From a virus: a stretch of 20,628 bases of DNA. The position numbers and the translations under genes are program-made. The notes beneath the pieces were generated by a model, which worked only from the letters and a program-made list of their open reading frames with translations, did not search any database and was not told where the DNA came from. Shown here piece after piece: positions 1 through 19,589 of this stretch (its first letter is position 1; every line of letters starts with the position of its first letter). The stretch covers positions 1 to 20,628 of the IMG/VR virus record IMGVR_UViG_3300032288_000340. One strand, 5' to 3'.

Positions 1-53
1 CCCAATTACCCGCAAATGAATTTGACCATTGGGGGGTAATACATTACAGTTGA
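1..53 (+). other. 3' end of an upstream gene, frame uncertain
   Basis: Two frames are open from the window edge. Frame 3 reads about 16 residues (ending HWGVIHYS) and stops with TGA at 51-53, three bases before the small terminase start. Frame 1 reads 12 residues and stops at 37-39. The tight packing of later genes favours frame 3, because its stop would allow translational coupling to the terminase. The piece is too short to assign a family. Phages of this type often carry an HNH endonuclease here, but no HNH motif is visible in the few residues present. Confidence 0.25.
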
Positions 54-56
54 GTT

Positions 57-527
57 ATGAACCAAAAACCACCAGAACTTCATTTAGTTGACGGGACTAC
101 TCCAAAAAGGGGTATGCCCAAGATGCTGCCTGACAATTTAAAAAAGAGAATTCCTAAAGCGGAGTGGGTGGATAACCCAGAGGCGTGGGACAAGACTCAA
201 TTTATTGAGGAAACGGCAGAATTTCTTTATAACGTGTACGGCATTGGGAATGACCAAGACAAACACACGTTGGCGATGCTGGCCGACCATATTGATACTT
301 ATGTGAAATGCACCGACGCAATTAAACGCGGTGGTATTGTTTCTAAGTTTAATGATGGCAAAACGGTTGGTCCTAATCCTTATTTGTCTGTGCGGAATAA
401 GACCATGACGTTGATTATTCAATTGATGAACGAATTAGGGTTGACCCCTAGAAGCCGTTTGTCTGCTGGCAAACAGGAAGAAGACAGCCCTGTGGCGCAA
501 TTCCTTAAAGGACCGTTTGCCGGATGA
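57..527 (+). CDS. terS: Terminase small subunit (P27 family)
   Basis: This 156-residue protein would recognise phage DNA and deliver it to the large terminase at the portal. The clearest family signal is at residues 105-134: GPNPYLSVRNKT followed by a helix and ELGLTPRSR, which is the C-terminal hallmark of P27-like (Terminase_4) small terminases. The preceding part (about 45-95) is predicted helical, as expected for the DNA-binding and oligomerisation region. The length is normal for the family. The Shine-Dalgarno is weak, so translation may depend on coupling to the upstream gene, whose stop is three bases away. The stop codon overlaps the large terminase start as ATGA. Family assignment is confident; the DNA site it binds cannot be seen. 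Confidence 0.88.
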   Translation: MNQKPPELHLVDGTTPKRGMPKMLPDNLKKRIPKAEWVDNPEAWDKTQFIEETAEFLYNVYGIGNDQDKHTLAMLADHIDTYVKCTDAIKRGGIVSKFNDGKTVGPNPYLSVRNKTMTLIIQLMNELGLTPRSRLSAGKQEEDSPVAQFLKGPFAG

Positions 528-2194
528 ATTACCAAGACGGTATAGCCTATGCTCATGCGGTGGCCAAGGGCGAGATAAATGTTTGCAACGATGTGCGCCT
601 GGCTTGCCAGAGATTCATCAACCAGTTGGAAAACAAAGAATGGGAATGGGTGTTTGACAGCCGAGCGCCTGACCATGTTTTACAGTTTGCGGCTACGCTA
701 AAACACACAAAAGGCCCGCAGGCAGGGCAATCAATTGTGCTTGAGCCGTTCCAGATATTGCTTATTTGCGCCATTTACGGGTTTAGGTCAAAGAAAACCC
801 TAAACAAGCGGATGGTGACGGATGTTATTTTGTTTATTCCAAGGAAGGCTGGCAAGTCAACTCTGACTGCGGTCTTAACTCTTTATGAGTTACTGTTTGG
901 CGAGGCTGGTCCTGAAGTGTTTACTTTAGCCACAAACAGGGAGCAGGCAACAATTGTGTTTGATGCTGCCAAAGGTTTTGTGGAATCTATGCCCAAAGAA
1001 CTGGCTGAATTATTTACCCCTACTAAATTTAGCATTGGTAAAAGAGGCGATTCGCAGTCTATGTTCAAGGCGTTGAGCCGTGATACAAAAAAGACTGGTG
1101 ACGGCAAAAACCCGTCTGCGGTGGTGGTGGATGAGGCCGCGCAGATTGTTGACCGCAACTCAATTGAGGTTTTGCACTCAGGTATGGTGGCCAGACAGAA
1201 CCCACTTCGGGTGTATATTACGACCGCCTCGTTCACGAAGGACACAAAGTTTTATGAGGACTTGTCCATGTATCAGTCGATGCTTCGTGGCGAGGCAACT
1301 GACAACCCGCGGTGGTTTGGCTTGCTCTACGGCCTAGATTTAGGTGATGACTGGCGTGACCCTGTGAATTGGGCAAAAGCCAATCCAATGCATGGAATAT
1401 CGGTTTATGAGGATGCCATTGCACAACGGGCAGAGGAAGCCAAACATAAGCCAGCGGCACTTAATGAGTTTCTTTGCAAAACCCTCAATATCTGGGTTTC
1501 ATCTAATGCGGCATGGCTTGACAGACAGCATTGGGATGACCCTGCGGCAATTATTGTTGAGCCACGCAAAGACCCAGAAGCGGTTTTTATTGGGTTTGAC
1601 TTGGCAGCAACGCGAGATTTAAATGCCGTTTGTACTTTAAAAAGATTTGGTGAATTGGACTATGAAGCCGAATGGCAGTTTTTTTTGCCGGAAGATTCTT
1701 TAGCGCATATACCCAAACACTATTTGGACATTTTTCAAGTGGCCATTAAAAGCGGTATTTTGAAACTGACAGAAGGCAACGTGATGGATGACCGCGAGAT
1801 TAGCGATTACATCATTAACCAACAGTGTCAAAAATACAACGTCAAAGAAGTTGGATATGACGCATACAACGCAGCCTCTTTGGTGGCCAGATTGCACGAT
1901 GCTGGACTGCCTGTAAAAAAGGTTGGTCAGGGCATGGCGGTCCTAAATAACCCAAGTAAGTACATTGAAAAGTTGATTTTGAATCAACAAATTAAGCATG
2001 ATGGCAATCCTTTTGTTGGATGGCAATTAGGAAACTGCTCTTGTTTCGTGGATGTTAACGGTAATATTAAAGTGCGTAAGAACGAAGCAGACAAAGGTGC
2101 AAAAGTTGACGGCATCATATCTATGATTATTGCGGCTCATTGTTCGTTAGATAATCCCTATGTTAGCGATAGTTTTGGATTTCGCTCGTTTTAA
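524..2194 (+). CDS. terL: Terminase large subunit
   Basis: This 556-residue packaging motor pumps DNA into the prohead through its N-terminal ATPase and cuts the concatemer with its C-terminal RNase H-like nuclease. The Walker A motif is PRKAGKST (about 106-113), the Walker B motif is VVVDEA (about 200-205), and the coupling motif ITTAS follows at 232-236. In the nuclease half, acidic residues lie in FIGFDLAATRD (Asp359), GYDAYNA (Asp446) and KVDGI (Asp529), the expected metal-binding pattern. Length and layout match the Terminase_1 family of HK97-like phages. The start overlaps the small terminase stop by 4 bases (ATGA), which implies translational coupling. All key motifs look intact. Confidence 0.96.
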   Translation: MNYQDGIAYAHAVAKGEINVCNDVRLACQRFINQLENKEWEWVFDSRAPDHVLQFAATLKHTKGPQAGQSIVLEPFQILLICAIYGFRSKKTLNKRMVTDVILFIPRKAGKSTLTAVLTLYELLFGEAGPEVFTLATNREQATIVFDAAKGFVESMPKELAELFTPTKFSIGKRGDSQSMFKALSRDTKKTGDGKNPSAVVVDEAAQIVDRNSIEVLHSGMVARQNPLRVYITTASFTKDTKFYEDLSMYQSMLRGEATDNPRWFGLLYGLDLGDDWRDPVNWAKANPMHGISVYEDAIAQRAEEAKHKPAALNEFLCKTLNIWVSSNAAWLDRQHWDDPAAIIVEPRKDPEAVFIGFDLAATRDLNAVCTLKRFGELDYEAEWQFFLPEDSLAHIPKHYLDIFQVAIKSGILKLTEGNVMDDREISDYIINQQCQKYNVKEVGYDAYNAASLVARLHDAGLPVKKVGQGMAVLNNPSKYIEKLILNQQIKHDGNPFVGWQLGNCSCFVDVNGNIKVRKNEADKGAKVDGIISMIIAAHCSLDNPYVSDSFGFRSF

Positions 2195-2224
2195 TGTAGG
2201 ATTGCGGAAATTTAGGAGAAAAAC

Positions 2225-3613
2225 ATGGGCATTTTGGATGTTTTCAGCAGAAAAAAAGTAACTGAATCTAACGCAGTTCTTGGCCAATTGCAGTTGGGCA
2301 ACCAAGTAATCATGGGGCAGAATCGCCAGCAGCCCTCTCAGCAATTACTGTATGTAACAACATCTAGCACCACCACCGCAGGCCGCGTGTTGGATATGTC
2401 TGCTTTGACACGCAATTCCACCGTGATGGGATGCGTTGGCGTTAAGGCAAGGGCATTGTCTCAATGCGGTATTGCTATCATGGCCAAGAATAAAGATGGC
2501 AATTTGGTAGATGCCTTGGCAGACCCTAGTGTTGGCGCCAGAGACAAGGGTAAAGCCCAACAAGTGCTGAATTTGTTGCACAACCCAAATAACTTCCAAA
2601 GCGCCTATGAATTTTGGTATCAATGGATGATGTGGCAAGACCTTGCTGGTGAATCCTTTACCCTGTGGTGGAGAAAAGACCAAAAAGACCCTGTGCAGAC
2701 TCCAATTGAGATGTACAACATGGATGCCACGCTGATTACGGTCAAATTGACTCCAGGCAACTATCCGTCTTATGTTCTAAGTTCACCCTCATACGGCTTT
2801 AGCAAAGACACGCCTTTGGATGCACATCAAATCATGCACATCAAAGAAGCGGCATGGCAAGGCTCGTCTGGCTTTAACAAAGGCATCTTGGCCACAGAGT
2901 TAATTGCGCTAGACCAAGACATTGATATTTACGCCAACTTCATTATGCAGAACGGTGCTAAACCTTCTGGCATTTTTAAGACTGATCAAGTTATTCCTGA
3001 CGCAAAGTACAAAGAAATCGCGGCTCGGATTAAAGAAACTTGGAATCAAATGACTGGCAGCAGGGCCACAGACCCATCCAAGTCGGGTCAGGGTATGTTG
3101 CTCGATCAAGGCATGACGTATGAAAGCATCAAGATGCTAAATCTACAAGATGCTGACGCGGCCAATCTGAAAATCCAAACCATGAAGCGCATTTGCGGTT
3201 TGTTTGGTGTACCGCCTGCAATGCTTGGAATTGCCGATGGCAAATATAATAATACTCAGACTATGTTGGATGAGTTTTATAAAACGGTTATGTATCCAAC
3301 CGTTATTAGCGTTGAGCAAAAATTAAAACAGCATTTGTTTAAAGGTTATCCAAACCTTTGTGTGCGCTTTGATACAAAAGATTTTTTAAAAGGCGCACCG
3401 CTTGACCAAATGAATTTTGTGACAGCCGCGGTCAAATCTGGCATTATGACTCCCAACGAAGCGCGTGAATATCTGAATATGCCGCGTATTGATGGTGGTG
3501 ATGAACTACAATCTGATGGCTCATCTGATGAGCCTATAAAAGGTACTTCACCACAGGACACGGGCGGTGGTGGCGGTAGCCAAAAGCGGAAAATGAATAT
3601 TGGCACAACATGA
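2225..3613 (+). CDS. Portal protein (HK97 family)
   Basis: This 462-residue protein would form the dodecameric ring at one capsid vertex through which DNA enters and to which the tail attaches. It opens with MGILDVFSRKK, a common portal start. The central stretch DQDIDIYANFIMQNGAKPSGI and the later IQTMKRICGLFGVPPAMLG (about 315-335) are typical of the Phage_portal family. The C-terminus is rich in Gly, Ser and Asp (SSDEPIKGTSPQDTGGGGG), a normal disordered tail. A strong Shine-Dalgarno AGGAG at 2214-2218, 6 bases before the ATG, fixes the start. A 30-base gap separates it from the large terminase. Confidence 0.95.
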   Translation: MGILDVFSRKKVTESNAVLGQLQLGNQVIMGQNRQQPSQQLLYVTTSSTTTAGRVLDMSALTRNSTVMGCVGVKARALSQCGIAIMAKNKDGNLVDALADPSVGARDKGKAQQVLNLLHNPNNFQSAYEFWYQWMMWQDLAGESFTLWWRKDQKDPVQTPIEMYNMDATLITVKLTPGNYPSYVLSSPSYGFSKDTPLDAHQIMHIKEAAWQGSSGFNKGILATELIALDQDIDIYANFIMQNGAKPSGIFKTDQVIPDAKYKEIAARIKETWNQMTGSRATDPSKSGQGMLLDQGMTYESIKMLNLQDADAANLKIQTMKRICGLFGVPPAMLGIADGKYNNTQTMLDEFYKTVMYPTVISVEQKLKQHLFKGYPNLCVRFDTKDFLKGAPLDQMNFVTAAVKSGIMTPNEAREYLNMPRIDGGDELQSDGSSDEPIKGTSPQDTGGGGGSQKRKMNIGTT

Positions 3614-3632
3614 TTGCAAAAAAACTTGCAAT
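3613..3632. repeat. 20-base dyad at the portal stop codon
   Basis: ATTGCAA (3613-3619) and TTGCAAT (3626-3632) are perfect inverted repeats separated by AAAAAC. The dyad begins at the last base of the portal stop and ends 6 bases before a candidate -35 box. As RNA it would form a weak 7-bp A+U-rich hairpin followed by UUU, so it could be a weak terminator. As DNA it could be an operator for the promoter just downstream. A chance dyad is also possible. Confidence 0.35.
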
Positions 3633-3638
3633 TTTGGC

Positions 3639-3668
3639 TTCACAAATTAAACCGAGTAATGTTACACT
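3639..3668 (+). promoter_or_regulatory. Candidate sigma-70 extended -10 promoter for head genes
   Basis: TTCACA (3639-3644, 5 of 6 matches to consensus) is followed after 18 bases by TACACT (3663-3668, 4 of 6), with an extended -10 TG at 3660-3661. It lies in a 120-base gap between portal and protease, one of the few sizeable gaps in the window. It would place the protease and both capsid genes under extra transcription, which suits high-copy capsid proteins. Sequence match alone is weak evidence, and no start site is known. Confidence 0.4.
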
Positions 3669-3733
3669 CGCGAGAATAGAGAAGCCCCACAAGATAAGAG
3701 ACGATAATCAATCTATCCACAATGGGGTGATAA

Positions 3734-4516
3734 ATGAAGAATTACACGCTAATTTGCGAAGCGCAGGTCCAACTAGCGGCTGGCGCAAACGAGGCACAAA
3801 ACCCATCAGGCATGATGGAAGCCAGAGTGACAACTTGGGGAGCGCGTGAAGGCGCAGACGGTCGCAAATTTAACTATCAGCCCGAAGGTTTCATGGATTG
3901 GGCAGATGAATTCAATGCTGGCGACAAACCACTTCCAATGTTTTTAAATCACAACGACCTTGGTATGCCAATGGGCGAGTGGAATTCATTTGAGTTTGAC
4001 GACAAAGGCATGACCGCCAAAGGTCGCTTGTACACAAACACAGTTGGTGGCAATGACCTTTATCAAATCCTAAAAGAATCCCCAAAGATGTTTGGCGGTG
4101 TTTCTGTTGGCGCTTATGCAGAAGAAGCCCAAATGGTTGATGCTGATGGCAACCCAGACCAATCAGAAGATGCTTATTTTCAAATTACTAAAGGCGGCTT
4201 GCGCGAAGTGTCCGTAGTTATGTATCCAAACAACCCAAATGCAGAAATCAACAAATTAGAAATGTTTAGCCCTGAAGGTGCTTTGAACATTCGCTCAGTC
4301 GAAAAGACCTTGCGTGAGGCGGGTCTGACTCGAAAGGATGCGACCACCGCATCTTTGGTATTCAAGAACGCTCTGGAACAGCGTGAGGCAGTTTCTAAGC
4401 CACTTGAATCTCTACCAACTCAGGGTGAGCCTGATGCGGTGGTAAACGAAGCCGATGCTCTGCTTGCCGCTTTTGAAGCGCGTGAGTTGGCCAAGGCACT
4501 TGAAAAACGTATCTAA
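3734..4516 (+). CDS. Prohead maturation protease (HK97 family, S78-like)
   Basis: This 260-residue serine protease would be packaged inside the prohead, cleave the scaffold (delta) extension of the capsid protein, and then itself. The likely catalytic triad is His73 (FLNHND), Ser124 (GGVSVGAY) and Glu158 (LREVSVVMYPNNPNA), in the order and spacing of the HK97 prohead protease family. The C-terminal 80 residues are charged and probably helical, as in the self-cleaved or scaffold-binding tail of relatives. An in-frame TAA lies directly before the ATG, which fixes the start; GGGGTG at 3724-3729 serves as a weak ribosome site. It sits directly before a capsid protein that has the predicted cleavable extension. 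Confidence 0.92.
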   Translation: MKNYTLICEAQVQLAAGANEAQNPSGMMEARVTTWGAREGADGRKFNYQPEGFMDWADEFNAGDKPLPMFLNHNDLGMPMGEWNSFEFDDKGMTAKGRLYTNTVGGNDLYQILKESPKMFGGVSVGAYAEEAQMVDADGNPDQSEDAYFQITKGGLREVSVVMYPNNPNAEINKLEMFSPEGALNIRSVEKTLREAGLTRKDATTASLVFKNALEQREAVSKPLESLPTQGEPDAVVNEADALLAAFEARELAKALEKRI

Positions 4517-4527
4517 AGGAAATTATC

Positions 4528-5871
4528 ATGTCTATGGATAAAGTACTCGAAAAAGTTGACGCTATTGCTGTGTCTAACGAAGCCAAAATTGACGCTGTAA
4601 AAAGCGAAGTCGCAACTACTGTGGAATCCGCAAAAGCCGAGTTGACTGAAAAGTTTGCCGCTTTGGAAGCCAAAGTTTCTGCAATTCAAATCCCTGAGAT
4701 TATTCGCACCCCTGCTAAAACAGTTCGTGGTGATGTGAATCGTCGCGTGAAAGAGCAACTTGCTTCTTTCACAAAAGGCAGCAACCGCGTTCACACAGAA
4801 GTGAAATTGTGGGAATCTGAAGAACAGCACCAAGCCTATTTGACAGAAGCCTCAACCTTGACTGGTTCTGGCGCTGGCATCGGTGGCCGTACTGCTTACG
4901 ACCCCGTGTTCTTCAAACTGCGTTTGCTCAACCCAATGCGCGGTGTTTCCCGTAACGTGGCTACTGATGGTTCAACCTATCAGTTCCGCGCTAAGACAGG
5001 CAACGCAGGTGCGGCTTGGGGCTATGCAATTCAAAACAACGGTGCGGCTACAACTGAAGCCACTAGCATCTGGCAATTGAATATGCAAGACATCAACGTG
5101 CAATTCCCAATCCGTACTGCGGCTTTGGATGACATTGATGGTTTGGAATCAAATGTTGTTGACGATATGTTGCAAGAATTCTCGCAACAAGAAGGCTTGT
5201 CAATGATTTTGAACAACGACCAAGCAGGTTCTACCACTACTGCCTACGGTGCAACTTCAGGCTTGCGTGGTCTGAATTCTTACCCTGGCTCTAACGCAAC
5301 CTACACTGGTGGCACTATCTCTGCTGCGGCCTTCGGCTCAAGCGGTACTGCCTCTACTGACGGTCTGCACAGCATTGCAACCTATGACCAAACCACCACC
5401 AATGGTTTTGCCGCTGCAAACAACGTGAAATACATTGATTTGATTCAATTCATTCACAACTTGCCACAGCAATACTGGTCTGCAAGCAACTGTTTTGTTA
5501 TCAATCCCTTGATGCTCGCTGGCATCCGCGGCTTGGTGGACAACAACGGTACGCCTGTGTTTGAACGTATGTCTCCGCTGATTTATGACGGCATCGTTGG
5601 CAAGTTGTTGGGCTTTGATGTGTATGTAAACTCATACTGCTCTGCTCCTACATCTGCTGGCGCTTCTGCTGGCACTACAAGCCTGTTCCCAATGTACTTC
5701 GGTGACTTCTCACGCGGCCACACAATCGTTGACCGTTTGAGCATGGTTCTGCGTAGATACGAACAGACAGCCCCAGGCTTTATCACATTTTTTGGTGAGA
5801 AACGCCTTTGCTCCAGCGTTGTTGACCCCAACGCCATTATTCGCTATCGCTCCACAGCGACAGGCGCTTAA
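4528..5871 (+). CDS. Major capsid protein 1, with delta domain
   Basis: This 447-residue HK97-fold capsid protein has an N-terminal delta/scaffold region. Residues 1-55 form a heptad-rich, Ala/Glu/Lys helix (coiled coil), followed by a basic linker to about 100. The core starts near EASTLTGSGAGIGGRT (107-122) and includes LNNDQAGSTTTA, TSGLRGLN and the C-terminal EQTAPGFITFFGEKRL strand typical of Phage_capsid proteins. The delta region is presumably removed by the protease encoded just upstream; the cut site should lie around 95-107 but cannot be read. A strong Shine-Dalgarno AAAGGA precedes the ATG by 7 bases. The gene is followed at once by an intrinsic terminator and then by a shorter paralog. 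Confidence 0.94.
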   Translation: MSMDKVLEKVDAIAVSNEAKIDAVKSEVATTVESAKAELTEKFAALEAKVSAIQIPEIIRTPAKTVRGDVNRRVKEQLASFTKGSNRVHTEVKLWESEEQHQAYLTEASTLTGSGAGIGGRTAYDPVFFKLRLLNPMRGVSRNVATDGSTYQFRAKTGNAGAAWGYAIQNNGAATTEATSIWQLNMQDINVQFPIRTAALDDIDGLESNVVDDMLQEFSQQEGLSMILNNDQAGSTTTAYGATSGLRGLNSYPGSNATYTGGTISAAAFGSSGTASTDGLHSIATYDQTTTNGFAAANNVKYIDLIQFIHNLPQQYWSASNCFVINPLMLAGIRGLVDNNGTPVFERMSPLIYDGIVGKLLGFDVYVNSYCSAPTSAGASAGTTSLFPMYFGDFSRGHTIVDRLSMVLRRYEQTAPGFITFFGEKRLCSSVVDPNAIIRYRSTATGA

Positions 5872-5885
5872 TTAGCGAAAAAATT

Positions 5886-5913
5886 GATGGGGGGCTTCGG
5901 CCTCCCGTCTTTT
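5886..5913 (+). terminator. Intrinsic terminator with UUCG tetraloop between the capsid genes
   Basis: GATGGGGGGC (5886-5895) pairs with GCCTCCCGTC (5900-5909) across a TTCG loop, giving a 10-bp stem with two G-U pairs and the very stable C(UUCG)G closure. TTTT follows at 5910-5913. It lies 15 bases after the stop of capsid protein 1 and 22 bases before the start of capsid protein 2. Because all downstream tail genes are on the same strand with no obvious new promoter in between, it is probably a partial terminator that lowers downstream expression. Confidence 0.85.
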
Positions 5914-5934
5914 AATCTTTAAGGAATTATCAAA

Positions 5935-6963
5935 ATGAGTGCAAACCAAAAAATCCTAGACGGCATCAAGCAAGCCATTACAGAGGGCGGCAAAGTAAAG
6001 ATTGATCTTCGTGAAGCATCAACGCTTACAGGGTCTGGTGCTGGCATTGGTGGTCGCACTTATTTTGATGATGCTTTTGCAACATTACGTTTTGCAAATC
6101 CTATTCGCGCTATGTCTCGCGTTGTGTCTGCGGCTGGTTCTGCTGTGCAATTTGTGGCAAAGACAGGTAATGCGGCCAACCAGACAAATCCTTTTGGCTA
6201 TACATTTACGCCAGACAGCGGTACTCCAAACACCGCCACATCAATCTGGCAATTGCCTACCCGTGTGATTACAGCCCAGTTGCCTGTGCGTACTGCGGTT
6301 ATGTCTGACATTAACTATCTTGACCAGACAATCATTGATGATTTGATGCTTGAATTTGCACAAATCGAAGGCGCATCAATGGTGCTGAATAATGACCAAG
6401 CGGGTTCAACTACTACTGCCAACGGTGGCACAAGTGGTTTGCGCGGATTAAATATGTACGCAAGTGCCGCTTCATCTGCTTATGGCTCTAGCGGTACTGC
6501 AATCACAAACGGTATTCATTCGATTGCTACATTTACGCAAGCGGCAGCGGCTGTGACGTATTCTGACATTACAGACATGGCTCGTTTGTTCCCTGCACAG
6601 TATTGGAACTTGCCTGGCACTGCGTGGATGATGCACCCACAGACAATTCACGAATTGCGTAACCTTGGCGGTGCTACTGCTATCAAACAATTCGCAGAAG
6701 TTGGCGATGATGATGGCGGTGCTGTTATGAATGTGTTTGGCTTCCCTGTTATTGCAAATCCAAATATGCAAACAACAGGTGCGGGCAAGTTCAATATCTA
6801 TTTGGCAAACTGGCCAAGATTTGTAACGATTGCTGACGTTGAAGAAATGAGCGTGCAAGCAATGGAACAAACGGCCCCAGGCTTTGTGACTCTGTTCGCA
6901 GAGAAACGCCTTGTAAGTACCGTTCGGGACCCGTTTGCTGGCATCCGTTTGGTTGGTGTATAA
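5935..6963 (+). CDS. Major capsid protein 2, paralog lacking the delta domain
   Basis: This 342-residue HK97-fold protein is clearly paralogous to the capsid protein encoded just upstream. Shared blocks include EASTLTGSGAGIGGRT (27-42 here, 107-122 there), ATSIWQL, LNNDQAGSTTTA, TSGLRGLN, a GSSGTA...HSIAT block and EQTAPGF...EKRL near the C-terminus. It starts 80 residues later than its partner, so the coiled-coil scaffold is missing, and it lacks a loop insertion near the middle. Shared codons differ at many synonymous sites, so the duplication is old. The Shine-Dalgarno AAGGA (5921-5925) is good. It may be a second shell subunit, a vertex (pentamer) protein or a minor capsid protein; the sequence does not decide. 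Confidence 0.9.
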   Translation: MSANQKILDGIKQAITEGGKVKIDLREASTLTGSGAGIGGRTYFDDAFATLRFANPIRAMSRVVSAAGSAVQFVAKTGNAANQTNPFGYTFTPDSGTPNTATSIWQLPTRVITAQLPVRTAVMSDINYLDQTIIDDLMLEFAQIEGASMVLNNDQAGSTTTANGGTSGLRGLNMYASAASSAYGSSGTAITNGIHSIATFTQAAAAVTYSDITDMARLFPAQYWNLPGTAWMMHPQTIHELRNLGGATAIKQFAEVGDDDGGAVMNVFGFPVIANPNMQTTGAGKFNIYLANWPRFVTIADVEEMSVQAMEQTAPGFVTLFAEKRLVSTVRDPFAGIRLVGV

Positions 6964-6966
6964 AAC

Positions 6967-7629
6967 ATGGCTGTCGAGAATCAAACCCTCGCGCCCTTTT
7001 ATTCCGACCAGCGGAATCCGTTTAACTACGCCAAATTTGAGCAAGTTGACCGTGACGTAGCAACGCCTTGGCTAACCCTTTCTGAAATCACGCAACAATT
7101 AAATTTGTTTGATGATGAAAGCCAAGACACATACTTGCAGTCTTTGGAACTGGCCACAAGGATGGCCATTGAAGACTTTATTGGTGCGGCTATTTATCCA
7201 ACCACCTACAAGGTCTATTACCCTAACTTTGGCTTGTACAACACAGCGGTGTTTTTGGACTTGCCTGAAGTGGCCGTAACTGCCTTTAACACGGTTGGCG
7301 TAATCATTAACAAGGTGGAGTTTTATTCCACATCAAACACAGTACCAGTTACGATTGCATCAACACAATATTCATACGACCCAACGGGTAATCGTGTTAT
7401 TTTGAACACAATCCCTAACACGTTGAATCAGACTGTGGCCAACCCAATCGTGGTGACTTATACGCAAAATTCTGCGTTTATTTCTACTTACCCTGTAATT
7501 AAACAGGCAGCATTGATGTTGCTGACCCACTTGTATAACAACCGTTCAAACACAACTGACGGCAAATTGCATGAAGTTCCATTTGGTGTAGCAACATTGC
7601 TAAGACCTTACAAACCACTCATCATGTGA
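6967..7629 (+). CDS. Head-tail connector (HK97 gp6 / phiE125 gp8-like)
   Basis: This 220-residue protein would form the adaptor ring below the portal. LTLSEITQQLNL (36-47) followed by a helix ending in ATRMAIEDFIGAAIYPTTYKV, and the ending EVPFGVATLLRPYKPL, are the usual marks of gp6-like connectors. The central part is beta-rich, with LDLPEVAV and YDPTGNRVIL segments typical of the phiE125 gp8 group. The start is only three bases after the stop of capsid protein 2 (TAA-AAC-ATG) with a weak Shine-Dalgarno, so coupling is likely. Length fits the phiE125 gp8 group. Confidence 0.85.
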   Translation: MAVENQTLAPFYSDQRNPFNYAKFEQVDRDVATPWLTLSEITQQLNLFDDESQDTYLQSLELATRMAIEDFIGAAIYPTTYKVYYPNFGLYNTAVFLDLPEVAVTAFNTVGVIINKVEFYSTSNTVPVTIASTQYSYDPTGNRVILNTIPNTLNQTVANPIVVTYTQNSAFISTYPVIKQAALMLLTHLYNNRSNTTDGKLHEVPFGVATLLRPYKPLIM

Positions 7630-7637
7630 GGCAGTAA

Positions 7638-7982
7638 ATGGGAATCGCACGTTTTGAGAACATAACCATTAACAACCTTTCTTTTGGGAAAAGTTCTTTT
7701 GGTGAACAATCAACTACTATTACAAAATGGTTTGAAACTCGTGCGCGTGTTCGCTCTGTGGCCAACAGTGTCCGCATCTCTGACAAGTACAGGGTTTATT
7801 CTGACATTGTTGAATTCACTTTGAACTACACACCGAACACCAAAACAATTATTGACAATCAAAATGCTTATTCCCTAACATGGAAATCGTTTGACTGGCG
7901 GGTGGATAGTGTTAGGGAATCGGATGACCGCATGACAGTTAAGTTTTTGTGCGTTCGCAATGACCCTGTGGTGGCTGTATGA
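7638..7982 (+). CDS. Head closure / head-tail joining protein
   Basis: This 114-residue, beta-rich protein resembles the Phage_H_T_join (SPP1 gp16-like) stoppers that close the connector after packaging. Supporting features are the early WFETRARVRSV segment, the VEFTLNYTPNTK strand, and the C-terminal WRVDSVRESDDRMTVKFLCVRN pattern, which matches the family's order of strands. Size and position after the gp6-like connector agree. GAGG at 7627-7630 precedes the ATG. It overlaps the next gene as ATGA. The family call rests on pattern and position rather than on a unique motif. Confidence 0.7.
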   Translation: MGIARFENITINNLSFGKSSFGEQSTTITKWFETRARVRSVANSVRISDKYRVYSDIVEFTLNYTPNTKTIIDNQNAYSLTWKSFDWRVDSVRESDDRMTVKFLCVRNDPVVAV

Positions 7983-8401
7983 CAGTTCAAAACAACGTCA
8001 TTAACTACGGCAAGGCAATCCAGTATCAACTGCAAAACATTGTCACGCCTGTGCCTGTATATGCGGCTTTTAACCGCAATTTTGCAACGCAGCCTAAGTT
8101 CATTACTTGGATGCTGAGAAATGTTCACCAAGAGGTTTATACAGGCTCGTATCAGTCTGTAAAAGGGATTGATCGACCAGTATTCCAGATAAGCATTTTC
8201 ACGCAAGTTATAGAAGACGGTTTTACAATTTCCAATCAAGTACTACAATCTCTACACGGTTATAGCGGTATGTTGGGAAACCCTGCTGACGGTGGATTTA
8301 ATATATCAAAAGCAGATTGCCAGTGGCTGTATAACAGTTATGACAACGAGAATAAGTTGGCGCAAATCTTTATTGATTGCACCATTGATATTCCATCATA
8401 A
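7979..8401 (+). CDS. Tail terminator / tail completion protein (DUF3168-like)
   Basis: This 140-residue protein sits between the head-closure gene and the tail tube gene, where siphoviruses encode the ring that caps the tail tube (lambda gpU / HK97 gp10-adjacent position). The start region GKAIQYQLQNIVTPVPVYAA and the later SVKGIDRPVFQISIFT strand resemble DUF3168 proteins, which open with a helix, a short VYxxxP-like strand and then a beta sheet. The C-terminal AQIFIDCTIDIPS would be the last strand. Translation is coupled by an ATGA overlap with the previous gene. The role is inferred mainly from order, size and predicted fold. Confidence 0.65.
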   Translation: MTVQNNVINYGKAIQYQLQNIVTPVPVYAAFNRNFATQPKFITWMLRNVHQEVYTGSYQSVKGIDRPVFQISIFTQVIEDGFTISNQVLQSLHGYSGMLGNPADGGFNISKADCQWLYNSYDNENKLAQIFIDCTIDIPS

Positions 8402-8437
8402 GACACGATTCATTCAACTCTTTAAAGGAAACTTAAA

Positions 8438-8932
8438 ATGGCTTTACCAACAAAAATTTTGCCCGGCTTTAGTGCAACACTATATGCACAGCCTAGCGCC
8501 ACTCCAACACCTTTGACAATTGCAAACTTGTCGACTTATGCCAGCGTTTCTGCTTTGGCAATTTCTGGCAACTTAGTGCCTGTTGAAGCAATCCCTGCTT
8601 TTGGCCAAGATGATGCTGTGGCATCTTTCTCTATTGCTGGTTCACGCCAATCGGACAAGATTCCTGTGCAATCTGCTCCTACTAGCATGACCATCACAGC
8701 CGCTTGGAATCCTAGCGACACCGTGTTGTTGTTGCTTCGCGCTGATGCTTACAACGGTACGATTGACCGCACTTTTGTGATTTCTGCAACAGATGGCACA
8801 GGCATTGTTAACTACGCCTTCAATGGCCGCGTTAGCCAGTGGACTATTGACTCAGCCCCAGGCGCTGAAGCCAAAGTGACATTCAGCATCCATCCCCGTG
8901 GCAATCAATACGGCTGGTCTGCCAGCACCTAA
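8438..8932 (+). CDS. Major tail tube protein
   Basis: This 164-residue, beta-rich protein is likely the tube subunit through which DNA leaves the virion. It starts MALPTKILPGFSATLYAQ, and has VQSAPTSMTITAAWNPSD (about 79-96) and RTFVISATDGTGIVNYAFNGRVSQWTI (about 110-136), matching the sheet pattern of lambda gpV-type tube proteins. No C-terminal Ig-like domain is present. A strong AAAGGAA Shine-Dalgarno in a 36-base gap precedes the ATG; the two capsid genes have the same type of leader, which fits three high-copy proteins. Position before the tail chaperone and tape measure supports the call. Confidence 0.82.
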   Translation: MALPTKILPGFSATLYAQPSATPTPLTIANLSTYASVSALAISGNLVPVEAIPAFGQDDAVASFSIAGSRQSDKIPVQSAPTSMTITAAWNPSDTVLLLLRADAYNGTIDRTFVISATDGTGIVNYAFNGRVSQWTIDSAPGAEAKVTFSIHPRGNQYGWSAST

Positions 8933-8934
8933 TC

Positions 8935-9132
8935 ATGTCTCTTAAAGACTCGATTGCTTTATTGACTAGCACCTACTTGCCCTTTGACCTTGCGGTCAGG
9001 GGCATGGAGTTGGATGCAAAAGAAGTGGCTGATGCTTTGGCAAAGGCTACTCCTGATACAGAAGAATTCACAGTTCTTCAACACCTTGCTACATACTTTC
9101 CGTATGTACCAACCAAAAAATCAACAGAATAA
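8935..9132 (+). CDS. Small protein of unknown function in the tail operon
   Basis: This 65-residue acidic protein starts 2 bases after the tail tube stop (TAATCATG) and is followed 3 bases later by another small gene. No family is recognised. It is mostly predicted helical, with a Leu/Ala-rich N-terminal helix and the segment DAKEVADALAKATPDTEEF in the middle. The tight spacing on both sides supports it being a real translated gene. A role in tail assembly is possible by position only. Confidence 0.6.
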   Translation: MSLKDSIALLTSTYLPFDLAVRGMELDAKEVADALAKATPDTEEFTVLQHLATYFPYVPTKKSTE

Positions 9133-9135
9133 AAC

Positions 9136-9360
9136 ATGACCACGACAATAAAAGACAGCAATGACCTTTTGGGTTTCCTAGTAAGCCAAGCCGAATCTCG
9201 AAAGGATTGGTTTGGCTTTTCTCAACAGAGAATGACTGCGGTTAACTTGGCGCACCAGATTGCCCAGAATCACGCAGACAAGATGACTCCCGAAGAAGTG
9301 GTGAACTACGCTATTCAAGTAAACCACTTGATTTTTCATAAGATTATTAAGGCGGGTTAA
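9136..9360 (+). CDS. Small helical protein of unknown function in the tail operon
   Basis: This 74-residue protein begins 3 bases after the previous stop (TAA-AAC-ATG, the same junction as between capsid protein 2 and the connector) and ends 3 bases before the gp10-like gene. It is predicted all-helical, with FGFSQQRMTAVNLAHQIAQ in the middle and a Val/Ile-rich C-terminal helix. No family is recognised. Regular operon spacing supports expression. Confidence 0.6.
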   Translation: MTTTIKDSNDLLGFLVSQAESRKDWFGFSQQRMTAVNLAHQIAQNHADKMTPEEVVNYAIQVNHLIFHKIIKAG

Positions 9361-9363
9361 ATC

Positions 9364-9912
9364 ATGCAGGCATCTTTCAAAATTGAAGGTTTGAAAGATG
9401 TGCTTGCCGCATTTGAAGAATTGGCTCAAGACATTGGCGACAAAAAAGCCACAAGTAAAATCTTAGTGCCAGCCGCACGAGAGGCCATGCAACCTGTTTT
9501 ATCACAAGCGGTTGCCAATGCACCGATGGACACGGGCGCATTAAGATTATCTCTACAGGTAGAAGCAAGACGACCCACTAGGCGCGACAGAAGGTCGAAA
9601 TATATTACCGAAAAAGATTCAGTTATTGCGGTGGTGACCACAGCGCCTGGCAAGAAGTTAAAAGCCATGAGCGAGGGCAAAGGCTTAATAAGCAGCCGTA
9701 AAAAACTCAAGAAAATGGGCGTTGAAAATGCTGATGCTTTTATGGGAATCAAAAGCGATGCTCGCGCAATAGCACAAGAATTTGGCTCTGCTCACAATCC
9801 GGCACATCCGTATTTGAGGCCAGCAATGGAATCCCAAGCCCCTAACACCGCCAAAAGGCTTGGAGATATTATCGGTAGGCGGTTAAATCAATACAAGGCA
9901 AAACAGAAATGA
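9364..9912 (+). CDS. HK97 gp10-like tail/neck protein
   Basis: This 182-residue protein matches the HK97-gp10-like family. It starts FKIEGLKDVLAAFEEL, then has a helix ending AAREAMQPVLSQAVANAP followed by MDTGALRLSL (the A-P-x-D-T-G-x-L-R signature, about 51-64), a basic segment, and the closing AQEFGSAHNPAHPYLRPAME (about 137-156). The family acts in neck or tail completion. In HK97 and many relatives it lies between the head-closure and tail-terminator genes, but here it follows the tail tube and two small genes. It is strongly basic (RRPTRRDRRSK, 69-79). It overlaps the next gene by 4 bases (ATGA). Confidence 0.85.
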   Translation: MQASFKIEGLKDVLAAFEELAQDIGDKKATSKILVPAAREAMQPVLSQAVANAPMDTGALRLSLQVEARRPTRRDRRSKYITEKDSVIAVVTTAPGKKLKAMSEGKGLISSRKKLKKMGVENADAFMGIKSDARAIAQEFGSAHNPAHPYLRPAMESQAPNTAKRLGDIIGRRLNQYKAKQK

Positions 9913-10391
9913 CGAAATTTAGTTCAGCATTTGGTGAAAAGTATCAGACAAATAAGAAGAACCTATTGGTTCGTTCATTTGAACTTGGCGGTCATACATT
10001 TAAGGTGCGTATTCCTTTGATGGCCGAATCGGATGAGATTTATACAAAAGTCACAAATCCAAATGACGAAACGATAGAAAAAATATATCAAGAATTAACA
10101 AAACCTTTGATGCAGTTTGAAAGCAACCAGACTGAGGAATTTAAGTTTGTTGAAAACGACATTTTGGTGGATGGTCGCTCAATGCGCGAAGCGGCCAAGA
10201 ACAAGGCTATTACAGAGGCTCGCATAACAGAATTCTTTAAATTGCTTGTGCCTGAGTTAGAAGGTGCAAGCCTAGAAGATTTGACATATCAGGACATTGA
10301 GGATGAATTCCCTATGTCGGTACAGTTGCAAATCGTTGAAAAAATTGGTGAAGCAATTAGCCCAACATATAAGGAAAGTCGGGGAAACTAA
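9909..10391 (+). CDS. Tail assembly chaperone, short form (gpG-like)
   Basis: This 160-residue protein corresponds by position and arrangement to lambda gpG, which coats the tape measure protein and recruits tube subunits. It begins with a beta region (SFELGGHTFKVRIPLMAESD, about 23-42) and continues as helices with many acidic residues (LEGASLEDLTYQDIEDEF). The last codons, GGA AAC, form part of a slippery heptamer directly before the TAA stop, so a minority of ribosomes should continue into the GT form. It overlaps the gp10-like gene by 4 bases. Confidence 0.82.
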   Translation: MTKFSSAFGEKYQTNKKNLLVRSFELGGHTFKVRIPLMAESDEIYTKVTNPNDETIEKIYQELTKPLMQFESNQTEEFKFVENDILVDGRSMREAAKNKAITEARITEFFKLLVPELEGASLEDLTYQDIEDEFPMSVQLQIVEKIGEAISPTYKESRGN

Positions 10392-10753
10392 TTGGCTCGT
10401 TGAAAAGTCAATGTATAGCAGCAATGATTTTCAACGGGCATACAACCGAGACAATTTCTGAGTTAGATGATGTGACGATGGCCAATATTCAAACAATGTA
10501 TGCGGATGGGTTGATTGGCAACTATGGATTGCTGACGCAACTGGCCACGCTGACAAACGGTGTTTTTAACTATATGAGGGCGGCTAATTCGCCTCCATAT
10601 AAACTAGCAAATATACTTGGGAGTGCGTATGATTACATCTATCCACCGTTGCCTGAAAGTAGCAAAGAGGCGGCTGTTAACGATAGCCTTTTAATGTTTA
10701 TGACGCAGGCTCAAGGGTTTGATAAGAAATTGTTTGAGGTAAAACATGGCTAA
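9909..10753 (+). CDS. Tail assembly chaperone, frameshifted long form (gpGT-like)
   Basis: A -1 frameshift at 10382-10388 would join the 160-residue gpG-like protein to 121 further residues read in the other frame from 10388 to 10750, giving a 281-residue product. The junction would read ...ESRGN then LIGSLKSQ. The downstream frame is open from 10373 and has no ATG near its beginning; the first possible initiation codon is a TTG at 10400 inside the stem-loop, with no Shine-Dalgarno. This favours frameshifting over independent translation. The T part is helical with a YxYPPLPE segment. In lambda, gpGT binds the tape measure through G and tube subunits through T. It overlaps the tape measure start by 8 bases. 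Confidence 0.85.
10382..10388 (+). promoter_or_regulatory. -1 ribosomal frameshift slippery heptamer GGGAAAC
   Basis: In the zero frame this reads G GGA AAC followed at once by UAA. Slipping back one base pairs the same tRNAs with GGG AAA, and the next codon becomes CUA in the T frame. It fits the X XXY YYZ rule and differs from the lambda G/GT site (G GGA AAG) only in the last base. The direction of shift from the upstream to the downstream frame is exactly -1. Confidence 0.88.
10395..10439 (+). promoter_or_regulatory. Frameshift-stimulating stem-loop
   Basis: GCTCGTTGAAAA (10395-10406) pairs with TTTTCAACGGGC (10428-10439), a 12-bp stem with one G-U pair and a 21-base loop. It starts 6 bases after the slippery heptamer, within the usual 5 to 9 base spacing for stimulatory structures. 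The core CGTTGAAAA/TTTTCAACG repeat is perfect. No clear pseudoknot partner for the loop was found by eye. Confidence 0.78.
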
Positions 10754-12743
10754 TATGATTGCCCGCCTTGGCGTTGTTCTAGGCTTAGATTCAGCGGAGT
10801 TTAGCAAGGGCTTAGACGCGGCTGGAAAGAAACTAGAACAGTTCAGCCAATCTGCTGAAAAATACGGCAAGATTGCTGCAACCGCTTTGGTGGCCGCCAG
10901 TGCCGCGGCAATTAAATATGCTGATGATTTGGCAGACGTAGCAGAAGCCAATGAAGTCGCAATTGGTACAGTTTTGCAGTTATCCAATGCTTTGGCCAAT
11001 TCTGGCGGCAAAGCAGATAACGCAGGCAAGATGCTGTCAGCGTTTGCAAAGTTTATTGACGAGGCGGCTGGTGGCTCAGATAAGGCTCAGAAGACTGCAA
11101 TTGCTTTAGGCGTGTCTTTAAAGGATTTAGGCAAACTCTCCCAAGAGGAATTGCTTAATAAGTTGGTTGCCAATCTATCCAAAATTGAAGACCCAGTTAC
11201 ACGCAATGCCAAGGCGATGGAGATTTTCTCTAAAGCGGCCAAAGGCGTGGACATGGTTGGCTTTGCTGACAAGATGGCAGAAGCCAATCCGCTTATTGAG
11301 CAACAAGAAAAAGCAATTAAAGCCGCGGCTGATACTTATGATTTGTTGGCGCAAACCTCACGCGATGTGATGGTTGTATTGGCCACAGAGTTAGGTCCAA
11401 TTCTAAAGTCAACCATTGAATATATGAAAACAATGAATGATTATGGAATATCACTTAGCGGTATTTTTAAAACTGTATTTCAAACAGTAACGGTTTTAGG
11501 TTCTGAAGTATTCTATTTTTTCAAAGCAATATTTGATGAAATTGGTCACACCTATACTAACGCCAAAACTTTAATAACTAAAGGCGTTGATGCTGCTATT
11601 GCAGAAAACGCTAGGTATAACGCATCGGTAAAATCGCAACGCGAAAATTTAGATTTTTATCAAGCGCAGGTAATGGGGATAAGTTACGGGCGTACCGGAA
11701 ACGACCCAAGGCGCACAGATATTAAAAAGCCAAGCGCAGGCGGTGGTGGTGGCCGTATAGTTCAAGAATCTAAAGAAGCAGAAGCGGCTCGAAAAAGAGA
11801 GATGCAACTGTACGCGCAAGGTGCGGCTAATGCACAAAAGGCAGCGGAAGAAGATGCAAAGGCAAGAGCAGATTTCTTTAGTTCTTACGAAAAAGGAAAT
11901 GGCGCAGTTGCAGAACGTCAAAGGTTGATGGGCATTGCACTAGAAAACGAAAAAGAATTGATGTTATTGGAAATGAATTCCAGCAATAAACGTCAAGAAG
12001 ATTACGCGCTAGAGCGTGAGCAGATGTTGATTCGTCAACAACTTTCAAGAAATCTTGAAGAAATTGATGCTCGTAGAGATTTGACCGCAACAGCAAGGGC
12101 AGAGGCAGAGGCTCGTGAAACCGCTTTGGCAGAGAAATCATTAGCCATTGCAAAAGAAAAATATCGTTTAACAAGAGGATTGCGCGAGGGTACTTTTGAA
12201 GAAGGCATTACAAAACAAGCGCAAAGATTCTTGCGTGATATGCCAACAGAATTAGAAATGGGCGCAAAAGCCTTTGATTCTTTGATGGGCAATATGGAAT
12301 CTGCCATTGACAGATTTGTGCGTACTGGCAAGGCAAGTTTTAAAGATTTAGCCAGAAGCATTATTCAAGACATTATTGCCATGCAAATGAAAGCAATGGC
12401 CACTAGTTTCTTGAGTTCTTTGTTTGGCGTTGGGCCAAATCCATATCAACCAGCATCAGTTCTAGGGATGCCTGGCTACGCTAACGGTGGCAATCCTACT
12501 GTTGGCCAAGTCAGCGTGGTTGGCGAGCGCGGCCCTGAGTTGTTTGTGCCAAGAACTGCGGGAACAATTATCCCAAATCATGCTTTGGCTGGTGTTGGTG
12601 GAACTACAAACGTCACCAATTACAACATCAACGCAATTGACACTAAGTCATTTGAAGACAGACTGCTTGGAAGTTCTACGGCTATTTGGGCGGCAAATAA
12701 ATACGGTGAAAAAAACCTTGCTACAAAGTACGGGAGAACATAA
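10746..12743 (+). CDS. Tail tape measure protein (lambda gpH-like C-terminus)
   Basis: This 665-residue protein would set tail length and enter the host envelope during DNA delivery. Residues 1-70 are a helical start with an Ala-rich hydrophobic stretch (about 43-57). A second hydrophobic segment around 235-266 (FKTVFQTVTVLGSEVFYFF) may insert into membrane. A Gly-rich hinge (AGGGGG, 331-336) precedes a long charged coiled coil (about 340-480). Residues 495-560 (ELEMGAKAFDSLMGNMESAI and after) match the lambda tape-measure C-terminal domain, followed by YANGGNPTVGQVSVVGERGP, a common ending. At about 1.5 angstrom per residue a tail near 100 nm is predicted. GAGG at 10736-10739 lies 6 bases before the ATG. 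Confidence 0.93.
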   Translation: MANMIARLGVVLGLDSAEFSKGLDAAGKKLEQFSQSAEKYGKIAATALVAASAAAIKYADDLADVAEANEVAIGTVLQLSNALANSGGKADNAGKMLSAFAKFIDEAAGGSDKAQKTAIALGVSLKDLGKLSQEELLNKLVANLSKIEDPVTRNAKAMEIFSKAAKGVDMVGFADKMAEANPLIEQQEKAIKAAADTYDLLAQTSRDVMVVLATELGPILKSTIEYMKTMNDYGISLSGIFKTVFQTVTVLGSEVFYFFKAIFDEIGHTYTNAKTLITKGVDAAIAENARYNASVKSQRENLDFYQAQVMGISYGRTGNDPRRTDIKKPSAGGGGGRIVQESKEAEAARKREMQLYAQGAANAQKAAEEDAKARADFFSSYEKGNGAVAERQRLMGIALENEKELMLLEMNSSNKRQEDYALEREQMLIRQQLSRNLEEIDARRDLTATARAEAEARETALAEKSLAIAKEKYRLTRGLREGTFEEGITKQAQRFLRDMPTELEMGAKAFDSLMGNMESAIDRFVRTGKASFKDLARSIIQDIIAMQMKAMATSFLSSLFGVGPNPYQPASVLGMPGYANGGNPTVGQVSVVGERGPELFVPRTAGTIIPNHALAGVGGTTNVTNYNINAIDTKSFEDRLLGSSTAIWAANKYGEKNLATKYGRT

Positions 12744-13393
12744 TGTCGCTACAGACAATATTTGATATTCAGCAATCCATGACGGTGAATAACCGTAGGA
12801 CTGTTGGTCAACAAGTAAGCCGTTCAGGTCAAGTCAGAGTTGCTCAATACCTTACTTCTGTGCCTTGGGTGTTTACTGTTACACCACACAACTACTTGTA
12901 TTACCCACAGGTTCGTAATGTCATTCAAGCCATTGACAATAAAGATCGCCAGTTGCCTGAAAGCATTTCATTTGCCAGTACAAATCTGTCTTGGTTTGTT
13001 GCTTATCAAGGCGACTTGACGACAGGGCAGGTAAATGCTTTGACATTGGCATCAGCGCCAGCGGCTAATGCAACAACCATTTCCGTGGGTAACTTGCCTT
13101 CTGTTTCATCTTCTGCTTATGTGTTTAAGGCTGGCGACTTTCTTCAATTAGGTTTATACCCTTACAAAGTCACAGAAAATGTTTTAAGAGGCTCTGGCTC
13201 TACGGTGAATGTTACCCTGCATCGACCTGTTATTTCAACGCCTAGCGTTGGTACGTTGACTGCGGTAGGTACGGCTTGCACGTTTTATATGTTGGCAGAA
13301 ACTTGTCCCACCTATACACTCAACCCTATGACAAATGGTGCGTTTGTTGCGTGGGATGCGCCTTTTGTCTTTAGAGAGGACATTACAGGATGA
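12743..13393 (+). CDS. Minor tail protein after the tape measure (lambda gpM-like position)
   Basis: This 216-residue, beta-rich protein lies in the position of the distal tail or gpM-like protein that joins the tube to the tip. Visible segments are VAQYLTSVPWVFTVTPHNYLYYPQV (about 33-57) and, later, FKAGDFLQLGLYPYKVTENV (about 128-147), which looks like a small barrel-type insertion of the kind seen in phage tail-tip proteins (a GDFLQL strand followed by a partner strand). The C-terminus FVAWDAPFVFREDITG resembles tube/distal tail domains. It overlaps the tape measure stop (TAATG), with GGGAG at 12732-12736. The exact family is not certain. Confidence 0.62.
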   Translation: MSLQTIFDIQQSMTVNNRRTVGQQVSRSGQVRVAQYLTSVPWVFTVTPHNYLYYPQVRNVIQAIDNKDRQLPESISFASTNLSWFVAYQGDLTTGQVNALTLASAPAANATTISVGNLPSVSSSAYVFKAGDFLQLGLYPYKVTENVLRGSGSTVNVTLHRPVISTPSVGTLTAVGTACTFYMLAETCPTYTLNPMTNGAFVAWDAPFVFREDITG

Positions 13394-14040
13394 GTACAAC
13401 AATAGCGGCTTTATCTAGCCCATCAATCAACTATGGCGAGTTTGTCAAATTGACAACTGCCACAAACACCTATACTTTTTGCAATGCAGCATCACCCATT
13501 ACTGTAGGTGGAACTACTTACAGCAACTTGGGAAGCCTGTTAAGCATTGGCGACATTAAACGCGAGACTAAGGCGACTAGTGGCGACCTTACGATTGCTT
13601 TAACTGGTGTTGATGGCGCTAATGTGGCAGTCATTCTTGGTGCAGATATTAAAGGTTCATTGGTAGAAATTTGGCGCGGATTCTTTGATTCCAACAACCA
13701 AATTATCACAACTCCAACCTTGCAGTTTTTTAAACGGTATCAAGGTTATGTTGGTAACTTTTCTGTGACTGAGGATTGGAATCAGCAGATGCGGTCGCGG
13801 GTGGCTACTTGTTCAATCAGTTGCTCATCATTCCGGACAATCTTGCAAAACCGTATTAGCGGATTAAAGACTAATCCATCGGTATGGAAGAACTTCTATC
13901 CGAACGACACAAGCATGGACAGAGTTCCTGTCATTGCCTCAACTTACTTTGACTTTGGTTCACCGCCTGTGCAAGGTAGTCAATCTGCTACTAATGCTCC
14001 TTCTGACAGCGGAAACACAACGTCTTTTGAAGCAGCATAA
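13390..14040 (+). CDS. Minor tail protein before the hub (DUF2163 / gpL-like)
   Basis: This 216-residue protein starts 4 bases inside the previous gene (ATGA), with GAGAGGA (13374-13380) as its ribosome site. The early part (VKLTTATNTYTFCNAASPITVGGTTY, then SIGDIKRETKATSGDLTIALTG) follows the pattern of DUF2163-like or gpL-like proteins, in which a tail-hub strand set precedes the central hub gene. The middle has QFFKRYQGYVGNFSVTEDW and a Cys-containing ATCSISCSS segment, and the end FYPNDTSMDRVP...YFDFG recurs in this kind of phage protein. I do not see the C-terminal four-Cys cluster of lambda gpL. The C-terminus is Ser/Asn-rich and likely flexible. Confidence 0.6.
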   Translation: MSTTIAALSSPSINYGEFVKLTTATNTYTFCNAASPITVGGTTYSNLGSLLSIGDIKRETKATSGDLTIALTGVDGANVAVILGADIKGSLVEIWRGFFDSNNQIITTPTLQFFKRYQGYVGNFSVTEDWNQQMRSRVATCSISCSSFRTILQNRISGLKTNPSVWKNFYPNDTSMDRVPVIASTYFDFGSPPVQGSQSATNAPSDSGNTTSFEAA

Positions 14041-14487
14041 ATGATAAGACAGGCTACAAGACACGATATTCCAGTTTTGGTATGGATGATGCGGGAGTAT
14101 GCAAAAGAAGCGCCTATCCCCGTTTTGACAAGACCAGATGCACATAACTCAGACCATGTTGGGCAATTGATATTTCAAATGCTGAGTGGTCGGGGATTTA
14201 TTCTGATTGATGATGACCACAGGGGCATGATTGCCGCCATCATTACTCAAAATGTCTGGTGTCCTAAAGTATTGGAATTGCGTGAATTGGCTTGGTGGGT
14301 AATGCCAGAGCATCGAGGTAAATCTATTGGTGGCAAATTGTGGATTAAGTTTGATGAACTTGCCCAAGATATGCTAAACAATAAAAGAGTTGATTTTGTC
14401 TGTACAACTGTAATGGCAAACTCACCTTTGATAGACTATACAAAGAGAGGTTATAGGCCTCTCGAAGCAACTTTCTTTAGGGACTGA
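14041..14487 (+). CDS. GNAT-family N-acetyltransferase within the tail-tip operon
   Basis: This 148-residue protein has the GNAT fold pattern. MIRQATRHDIPVLVWMMREY (1-20) is the usual first strand and helix. ELRELAWWVMPEHRGKSIGG (79-98) is motif A, with the acetyl-CoA phosphate loop RGKSIGG. VDFVCTTVMANSPLIDYTKRGYRPLE (117-142) is the strand-helix-strand end, with a loop of the N-x-x-x-x-x-x-Y-x-K-x-G-Y type. It would transfer an acetyl group from acetyl-CoA to an unknown amine. It begins right after the previous stop (TAA then ATG) and ends 2 bases before the hub gene, so it is expressed with late tail genes. Lambda-like phages usually have a cell-wall peptidase here; none is seen in this window. 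Confidence 0.88.
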   Translation: MIRQATRHDIPVLVWMMREYAKEAPIPVLTRPDAHNSDHVGQLIFQMLSGRGFILIDDDHRGMIAAIITQNVWCPKVLELRELAWWVMPEHRGKSIGGKLWIKFDELAQDMLNNKRVDFVCTTVMANSPLIDYTKRGYRPLEATFFRD

Positions 14488-14489
14488 AA

Positions 14490-19513: not shown

Positions 19514-19541
19514 CTGTAAAACAAGATACGACATCATCCGC

Positions 19542-19563: not shown

Positions 19564-19589
19564 TGTTGTAACCCAGAATGGGGAACGGA

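Follow-up and report, generated by a model that had tools for sequence, protein, structure and literature searches.

A pair of unequal capsid paralogs in small tailed phages suggests an independent parallel to the vertex protein of phage T4

The head of phage T4 is built with two capsid paralogs, gp23 and gp24. The gene of the vertex protein gp24 lies next downstream of that of the major capsid protein gp23, with a terminator between them and a weaker codon bias in the second gene, and the two products carry a long and a short leader, respectively. According to the account of T4 in PMC9958956, gp23 sheds 65 residues and gp24 sheds 10. The sequences at these cut points read LTE|A in gp23 and LRE|S in gp24, and in the giant phage SPN3US the cuts are likewise described as placed after Glu (PMC5694885). 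In the gene transfer agent RcGTA and in HK97 (gp5), unlike what is proposed for the pair described here, a single capsid protein makes both hexamers and pentamers, and PMC7296036 places the spikes of RcGTA on the pentamers. A two-component shell of another kind is the Family 2B encapsulin of Streptomyces lydicus, reported in PMC12407261 as two HK97-fold proteins that co-assemble with irregular tiling; it differs from the present case in being a bacterial nanocompartment of variable composition and not a phage head. Here a pair of adjacent capsid paralogs, MCP1 and MCP2, is described that resembles gp23 and gp24 in gene order, terminator, codon bias, leader lengths and leader ends. We favour, with a probability of about 0.63, the reading that MCP2 is a scarce, protease-processed shell subunit, most likely forming the vertex pentamer, and an independent parallel to T4 gp24.

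The window, that is, the whole stretch of DNA analysed, comprises the 20,628 bases of a viral record and encodes the head and tail module of a tailed phage. The genes run in the order TerS, TerL, portal, S78 protease, MCP1, MCP2, connector and a weak head-completion match, and the module continues with a gene weakly matching a tail terminator, a candidate tail tube gene and that of a tape measure protein (Table 1). The original prediction, that the locus holds two adjacent and unequal capsid paralogs, was confirmed: both open reading frames are present, and BLASTP (44% identity over 341 columns, E 3e-75) and Pfam agree on their relationship. Since, in addition, both proteins pass the curated cut-off of the Phage_capsid profile PF05065 (99.8 bits for MCP1 and 68.1 bits for MCP2, against 24.2), their kinship is not due to chance. 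The N-terminal offset of 80 residues proposed at the outset is exact, the common block starting at E107 in MCP1 and at E27 in MCP2, and the predicted mature forms have 340 aa (36.2 kDa) and 315 aa (33.2 kDa), respectively. The accompanying claim that only MCP1 has a scaffold region holds for the 107-residue leader of MCP1, but MCP2 still has a leader of 27 residues with a predicted helix. MCP2 may plausibly rely on the scaffold domain of MCP1.

Table 1. Head-module features at and around the capsid gene pair (window coordinates)
Feature	Position	Strand	Basis and size
Prohead protease (Peptidase_S78)	3734..4516	+	Pfam PF04586 E 1.5e-10; PHROG head maturation protease
MCP1, major capsid protein	4528..5871	+	447 aa, 48.0 kDa; PF05065 E 2.4e-28
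MCP1 leader (delta-like), residues 1-107, end LTE|AS	4528..4848	+	conserved motif; model helix 3-52
Intrinsic terminator-like hairpin with T-run, MCP1-MCP2 gap	5886..5915	+	10 pairs, 7 G-C
MCP2, capsid paralog, proposed vertex subunit	5935..6963	+	342 aa, 36.2 kDa; PF05065 E 1.1e-18
MCP2 short leader, residues 1-27, end LRE|AS	5935..6015	+	conserved motif
Head-tail connector (Ad1/gp6-like), downstream flank	6967..7629	+	PF05135, PHROG 40/442

Relatives of the pair are frequent in public viral contigs, with up to 447 matching stretches per scan. Scans from MCP2 contributed the best 80 of 292, all 33 and the best 80 of 135 matches, and reverse scans from MCP1 contributed 4 matches, the best 80 of 135 and the best 80 of 447. 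The matches listed, together with phage P19250A and leaving out the window's own two copies and one control, make up 342 loci, which include some contigs twice as well as near-identical phages; complete pairs at 274 loci reduce to 219 distinct protein pairs. The search for phages with the same pair, proposed with the original prediction, was thus productive: among the matches listed, MCP1 is followed by MCP2 at 319 of the 342 loci. Of the remainder, 15 loci have MCP2 without MCP1 and 7 the reverse, and in one (L307) the MCP2 frame is divided into two overlapping pieces, possibly by a sequencing error or in a broken gene. At all 22 single-gene loci the contig ends at most 200 bases from the gene on the partner's side, and at the roomiest of them (L077, 193 bases) the last residues of MCP1 were found in that space.

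The same pair, in the same place, is carried by the Methylophilaceae phage P19250A (KX815270), cultured on a freshwater bacterium of that family, whose gp5 and gp6 are 58% and 56% identical to MCP1 and MCP2 of the window and are separated by a hairpin; gp6 is deposited as 'hypothetical protein'. The marine phage Venkman is assigned to one genus-level cluster with P19250A in PMC8163748, and no record as close to P19250A as Venkman was found in the phage collection searched. Among the matches listed, other phage records reach at most ~26% identity by portal and 29% by protease, and at most 33% with the terminase of P19250A as query. A literature search, whose coverage did not extend to the original P19250A paper, found no description of this capsid pair.

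Both copies are maintained and, to judge from these comparisons, the duplication is old. The ratio of substitutions, a comparison also proposed at the outset, indicates purifying selection on both proteins, with a median dN/dS of 0.106 for MCP1 and 0.085 for MCP2 (1109 pairs, filtered by identity and dS). The identity between MCP1 and MCP2 averages 42.4% within a phage and 41.9% between phages (a sample); these similar values place the split before the radiation of the sampled group and show no recent conversion. In a tree of 34 phages MCP2 is separate from MCP1, with branch support of 97/93 for MCP2 and of only 53/67 for MCP1. A search for close single-capsid relatives that could root the duplication yielded none. 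Among the records compared, the nearest phage with a single MCP was D14E (one MCP annotated); it is 22.5% identical over 69% of MCP1 and was discarded as outgroup, its branch being too long for rooting.

The closest solved relatives of MCP1 and MCP2 by sequence profile are RcGTA-type capsids, and the RcGTA capsid itself (Rcc01687) is the nearest solved relative of both by sequence and fold search. The structural model of MCP2, although of low confidence (mean pLDDT 55.5), matched over residues ~45-342 the RcGTA capsid (Z 15.6, 219 aligned residues, rmsd 5.2) and HK97 prohead I (Z 11.3). A fold without the HK97 domains, the outcome that had been named as fatal to the prediction, was therefore not what the model gave. 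The MCP1 model, which with a mean pLDDT of 48.2 is too poor for domain claims, has the same best match, the RcGTA capsid (Foldseek only). The genes are not those of an encapsulin shell, as the pair sits between the prohead protease and the connector of a phage head module, in P19250A too.

The capsid proteins of T4 differ in family, belonging to PF07068 whereas those described here belong to PF05065: the T4 Gp23/Gp24 profile gave no match at E up to 1, and the best BLASTP value between gp24 and MCP2, E 2.5, is not significant. Hence the resemblance looks like a parallel and not like shared inheritance, and the duplication apparently was a separate one from that of T4; MCP2 would work like gp24 and yet not be a member of its family. 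Also unlike T4, the pair occurs in genomes such as that of P19250A (38.7 kb and termed a siphovirus in PMC8163748), with an S78 protease and a scaffold encoded in the leader.

The difference between the leaders is a constant property of the pair. In the 219 distinct pairs the leader extends over 100-113 residues in MCP1 (median 106) and over 23-42 in MCP2 (median 27). The Glu at its end (E107 and E27 in the window) is invariant in both proteins, 219/219 in each case, and stands in an [LIMV]xE[AS] context in 213 of the MCP1 and 217 of the MCP2 sequences. Low-confidence models predict a leader helix at residues 3-52 of MCP1 and 3-17 of MCP2. It seems probable from this shared [LIMV]xE motif, which in the window takes the forms LTE|AS and LRE|AS, that both proteins are cut after it, presumably by the S78 protease of the module. 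The Glu motif is not a rule for S78 proteases, because the S78 protease of HK97 cuts after Lys103, and the motif Glu is missing from gp24 in two of six T4-like phages (L351, L352).

The gap between the two genes contains a hairpin followed by a T-run that heads the list of 27 terminator-like sites in positions 1-20000 of the window, where shuffles gave an expectation of 20.5. A terminator in this gap was found at 313 of the 319 loci, corresponding to 196 of 201 distinct intergenic sequences, and the stem-loops come in 128 sequence variants. For comparison, the finder scored 10 of 204 stretches after MCP2 and 1 of 171 before MCP1, both of these flank controls being mostly coding sequence, and 182 of 3000 random windows. 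An earlier set of loci had given 70/70, against 263/3500 shuffles. Most of the six loci that fail the test still show a hairpin with a weak T-run; the intergenic length of one locus (L186) is unreliable, its MCP2 start being misassigned. A terminator follows gene 23 in all six T4-like phages. It was nevertheless rejected as proof of a vertex role, because all four lambda-type phages have one directly after their MCP gene; in two of these phages the finder also placed one in the gap between D and E, and one is annotated there in the HK225 record. A terminator after the MCP gene, being common, hence points to lower expression of whatever follows and not a vertex role.

Codon usage was expressed as the C-ending fraction in six codon families for nine genes of the module. 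C-ending codons are a mark of high expression known from E. coli, on which the measure is based; it was calibrated on few phages. The mean fraction was highest of the nine in MCP1 (0.528), with 0.379 in MCP2, 0.403 in the portal gene and 0.380 in the connector gene, and MCP1 exceeded MCP2 in 225 of 235 phages. In the T4-like phages gene 23 exceeded gene 24 in six of six (0.53 and 0.37 in T4), and the vertex gene lay below the portal gene in four of six. The measure cannot tell 55 copies from 12. The terminator and the codon bias together point to MCP2 as the scarcer partner. Among the roles first considered for MCP2, that of a bulk second shell subunit is disfavoured by a codon usage that equals that of the portal and connector genes and not that of MCP1.

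The proposal that MCP2 acts as an outer-surface decoration protein fares worst of the readings weighed. It could appeal to the window's list of open reading frames, which holds, as originally noted, no decoration-type gene between protease and connector, and to the MCP2 of one locus (L186:5374-6637), in which ~75 extra residues, Gly/Thr/Val-rich and resembling a surface domain, are inserted in the presumed E-loop region. Decoration genes of lambda-type phages, however, have a C-ending fraction at or above that of their MCP in three of four phages (19-27 codons each), whereas MCP2 lies below MCP1. Moreover MCP2 is unlike lambda gpD or Soc-type proteins in its 342 aa, in its capsid family by Pfam and in its HK97-fold model, and it has a leader and motif of capsid type.

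The original suggestion that MCP2 co-assembles as pentamers is favoured by the terminator, by the codon bias as calibrated on T4, by the T4-like leader motif and by the HK97-fold model, the last of low confidence; the position at the vertex we infer from the analogy with T4. MCP2 would go back to an ancient duplication of the major capsid gene and, like T4 gp24, would supply the pentamers of the 11 vertices that lack the portal. A single transcript may span both genes, and the hairpin after MCP1 would stop most of it, so that MCP2 would be made by read-through and in lower amount. MCP1, with its helical leader of ~106 residues, would form the prohead lattice alongside portal and protease; the five-fold positions would be taken by MCP2 with its leader of ~27 residues. 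The S78 protease would then cleave both proteins after the [LIMV]xE motif present in their sequences, and expansion would produce a two-protein shell with hexamers of MCP1 and pentamers of MCP2. If this is true, a two-protein head of the T4 style arose anew in small tailed phages from a different capsid family, and it did so with the gene order, the terminator, the unequal leaders and the leader motif all alike. It would also suggest a general route from one self-assembling capsid protein to specialists for hexamers and pentamers. The cultured P19250A makes the vertex model testable.

MCP2 is exchanged between otherwise similar phages to a degree not seen in its neighbours. Across 148 phages, the identities of MCP1 and connector track each other with a Spearman coefficient of 0.84, and those of MCP2 track MCP1 and connector with 0.64 and 0.60. 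Such loose correlation does not by itself set MCP2 apart, since it is weaker still between the head-completion gene and these two (0.42 for MCP1 and 0.43 for the connector); what does is sharp replacement between similar flanks. An exchange was scored where a gene fell below 72% identity while both flanking genes, MCP2 excluded from the flanks, stayed above 88% (142 phages). MCP2 was sharply replaced in 65 of 246 pairs, representing 7 separate groups and 45 loci, against 0/364 for the protease, 0/233 for MCP1, 1/175 for the connector and 7/276, all in one group, for the head-completion gene. The overall mean identities are similar (0.646 for MCP2, 0.643 for the protease and 0.626 for the connector). 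In five profiled pairs the DNA identity drops within MCP2 and rises again toward its end. These counts replace those of a first test (67/262 for MCP2 and 0/404, 0/192 and 0/132 for controls), which was biased because two of its controls used MCP2 as a flank. An exchange specific to the A domain was also dropped: this block is the most variable in MCP2 (0.49), but likewise in equally diverged MCP1 (0.56), in a comparison with approximate block limits and a looser cut-off (269 pairs) from which no count is drawn.

The exchange weakens the vertex reading, because replacement of MCP2 while MCP1 stays alike is unexpected for a tightly co-evolving lattice partner. It may alternatively be accommodated by regarding the vertex protein as an exchangeable cassette, such that the hexamer lattice is kept, the pentamer protein is swapped and the corners of the head evolve on their own; this extension is offered tentatively and is itself rather doubtful. 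Were it true, the swapped corners would be the place where spikes of the RcGTA type bind or where host defences may sense the particle. Homing, vertex-bound spikes and pressure from host defence are candidate causes of the exchange.

The main alternative is a mixed shell in which MCP2 enters hexamers and pentamers in variable amount and tunes the size or stability of the head, after the manner of the Streptomyces lydicus encapsulin. A two-component HK97-fold shell of this kind is on record in PMC12407261, and its chains are among the fold matches obtained here. MCP1 and MCP2 are, besides, 44% identical, against a figure of ~20% for gp23 and gp24 in PMC9958956, and owing to this higher identity their interfaces may still fit each other. 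Mixed capsomers, on the other hand, would be expected to resist the swapping of MCP2 next to an unchanged MCP1, and, within-phage and between-phage identity being nearly equal, neither pairwise matching nor gene conversion is apparent. With the terminator and codon signs of low MCP2 expression added, a mixed shell appears unlikely.

That unusual exchangeability could also be taken to mean that MCP2 stays outside the virion, as an assembly factor or as a decoy for capsid-sensing defence, capsid proteins being triggers of some bacterial defences. MCP2 is, however, not lost at any of the examined loci with room for it, bar one split frame, its dN/dS is 0.085, and its leader and motif are kept, all of which makes a non-virion role improbable. 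Hardly more credible is a shell, or an alternative head such as a size variant, built by MCP2 apart from MCP1. MCP2 does cover the capsid fold and has a leader of its own, but the module was found to have a single protease gene and a single portal gene, the shared leader motif suggests the same prohead, and the signs of low expression hold here as well. It is similarly improbable that MCP2 forms an adaptor ring at the portal vertex or neck instead of occupying all vertices. Its gene adjoins that of the connector and has the codon usage of portal and connector, but further downstream there is already a connector gene and one with a weak match to head-completion proteins, and we know of no HK97-fold neck adaptor.

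Some loci show further particularities. One contig carrying the capsid pair (L117) is filed under Candidatus Nitrosotalea; this may be a binning error, because Pseudomonadota is the assignment of the three remaining genome contigs found. The tail module of the window includes a gene for a GNAT-type acetyltransferase (14041-14487). An open reading frame of 100 aa lies between MCP1 and MCP2 at three loci (L182, L185, L190), and its copy in L182 matches PHROG 2859, of unknown function. A homing endonuclease lies between the capsid genes in three of the six T4-like phages (T4, AB-Navy-v2 and phi1_146010) and here at 3 of the 319 loci (L236, L246, L254), as homing-endonuclease-like reading frames of 199-209 aa. 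The one in L246 is assigned to PHROG 314. Over 138 residues it shares 36% identity with the homing endonuclease of the window, a protein with a NUMOD3 motif (PHROG 314) encoded downstream of the tail genes at 19578-20210.
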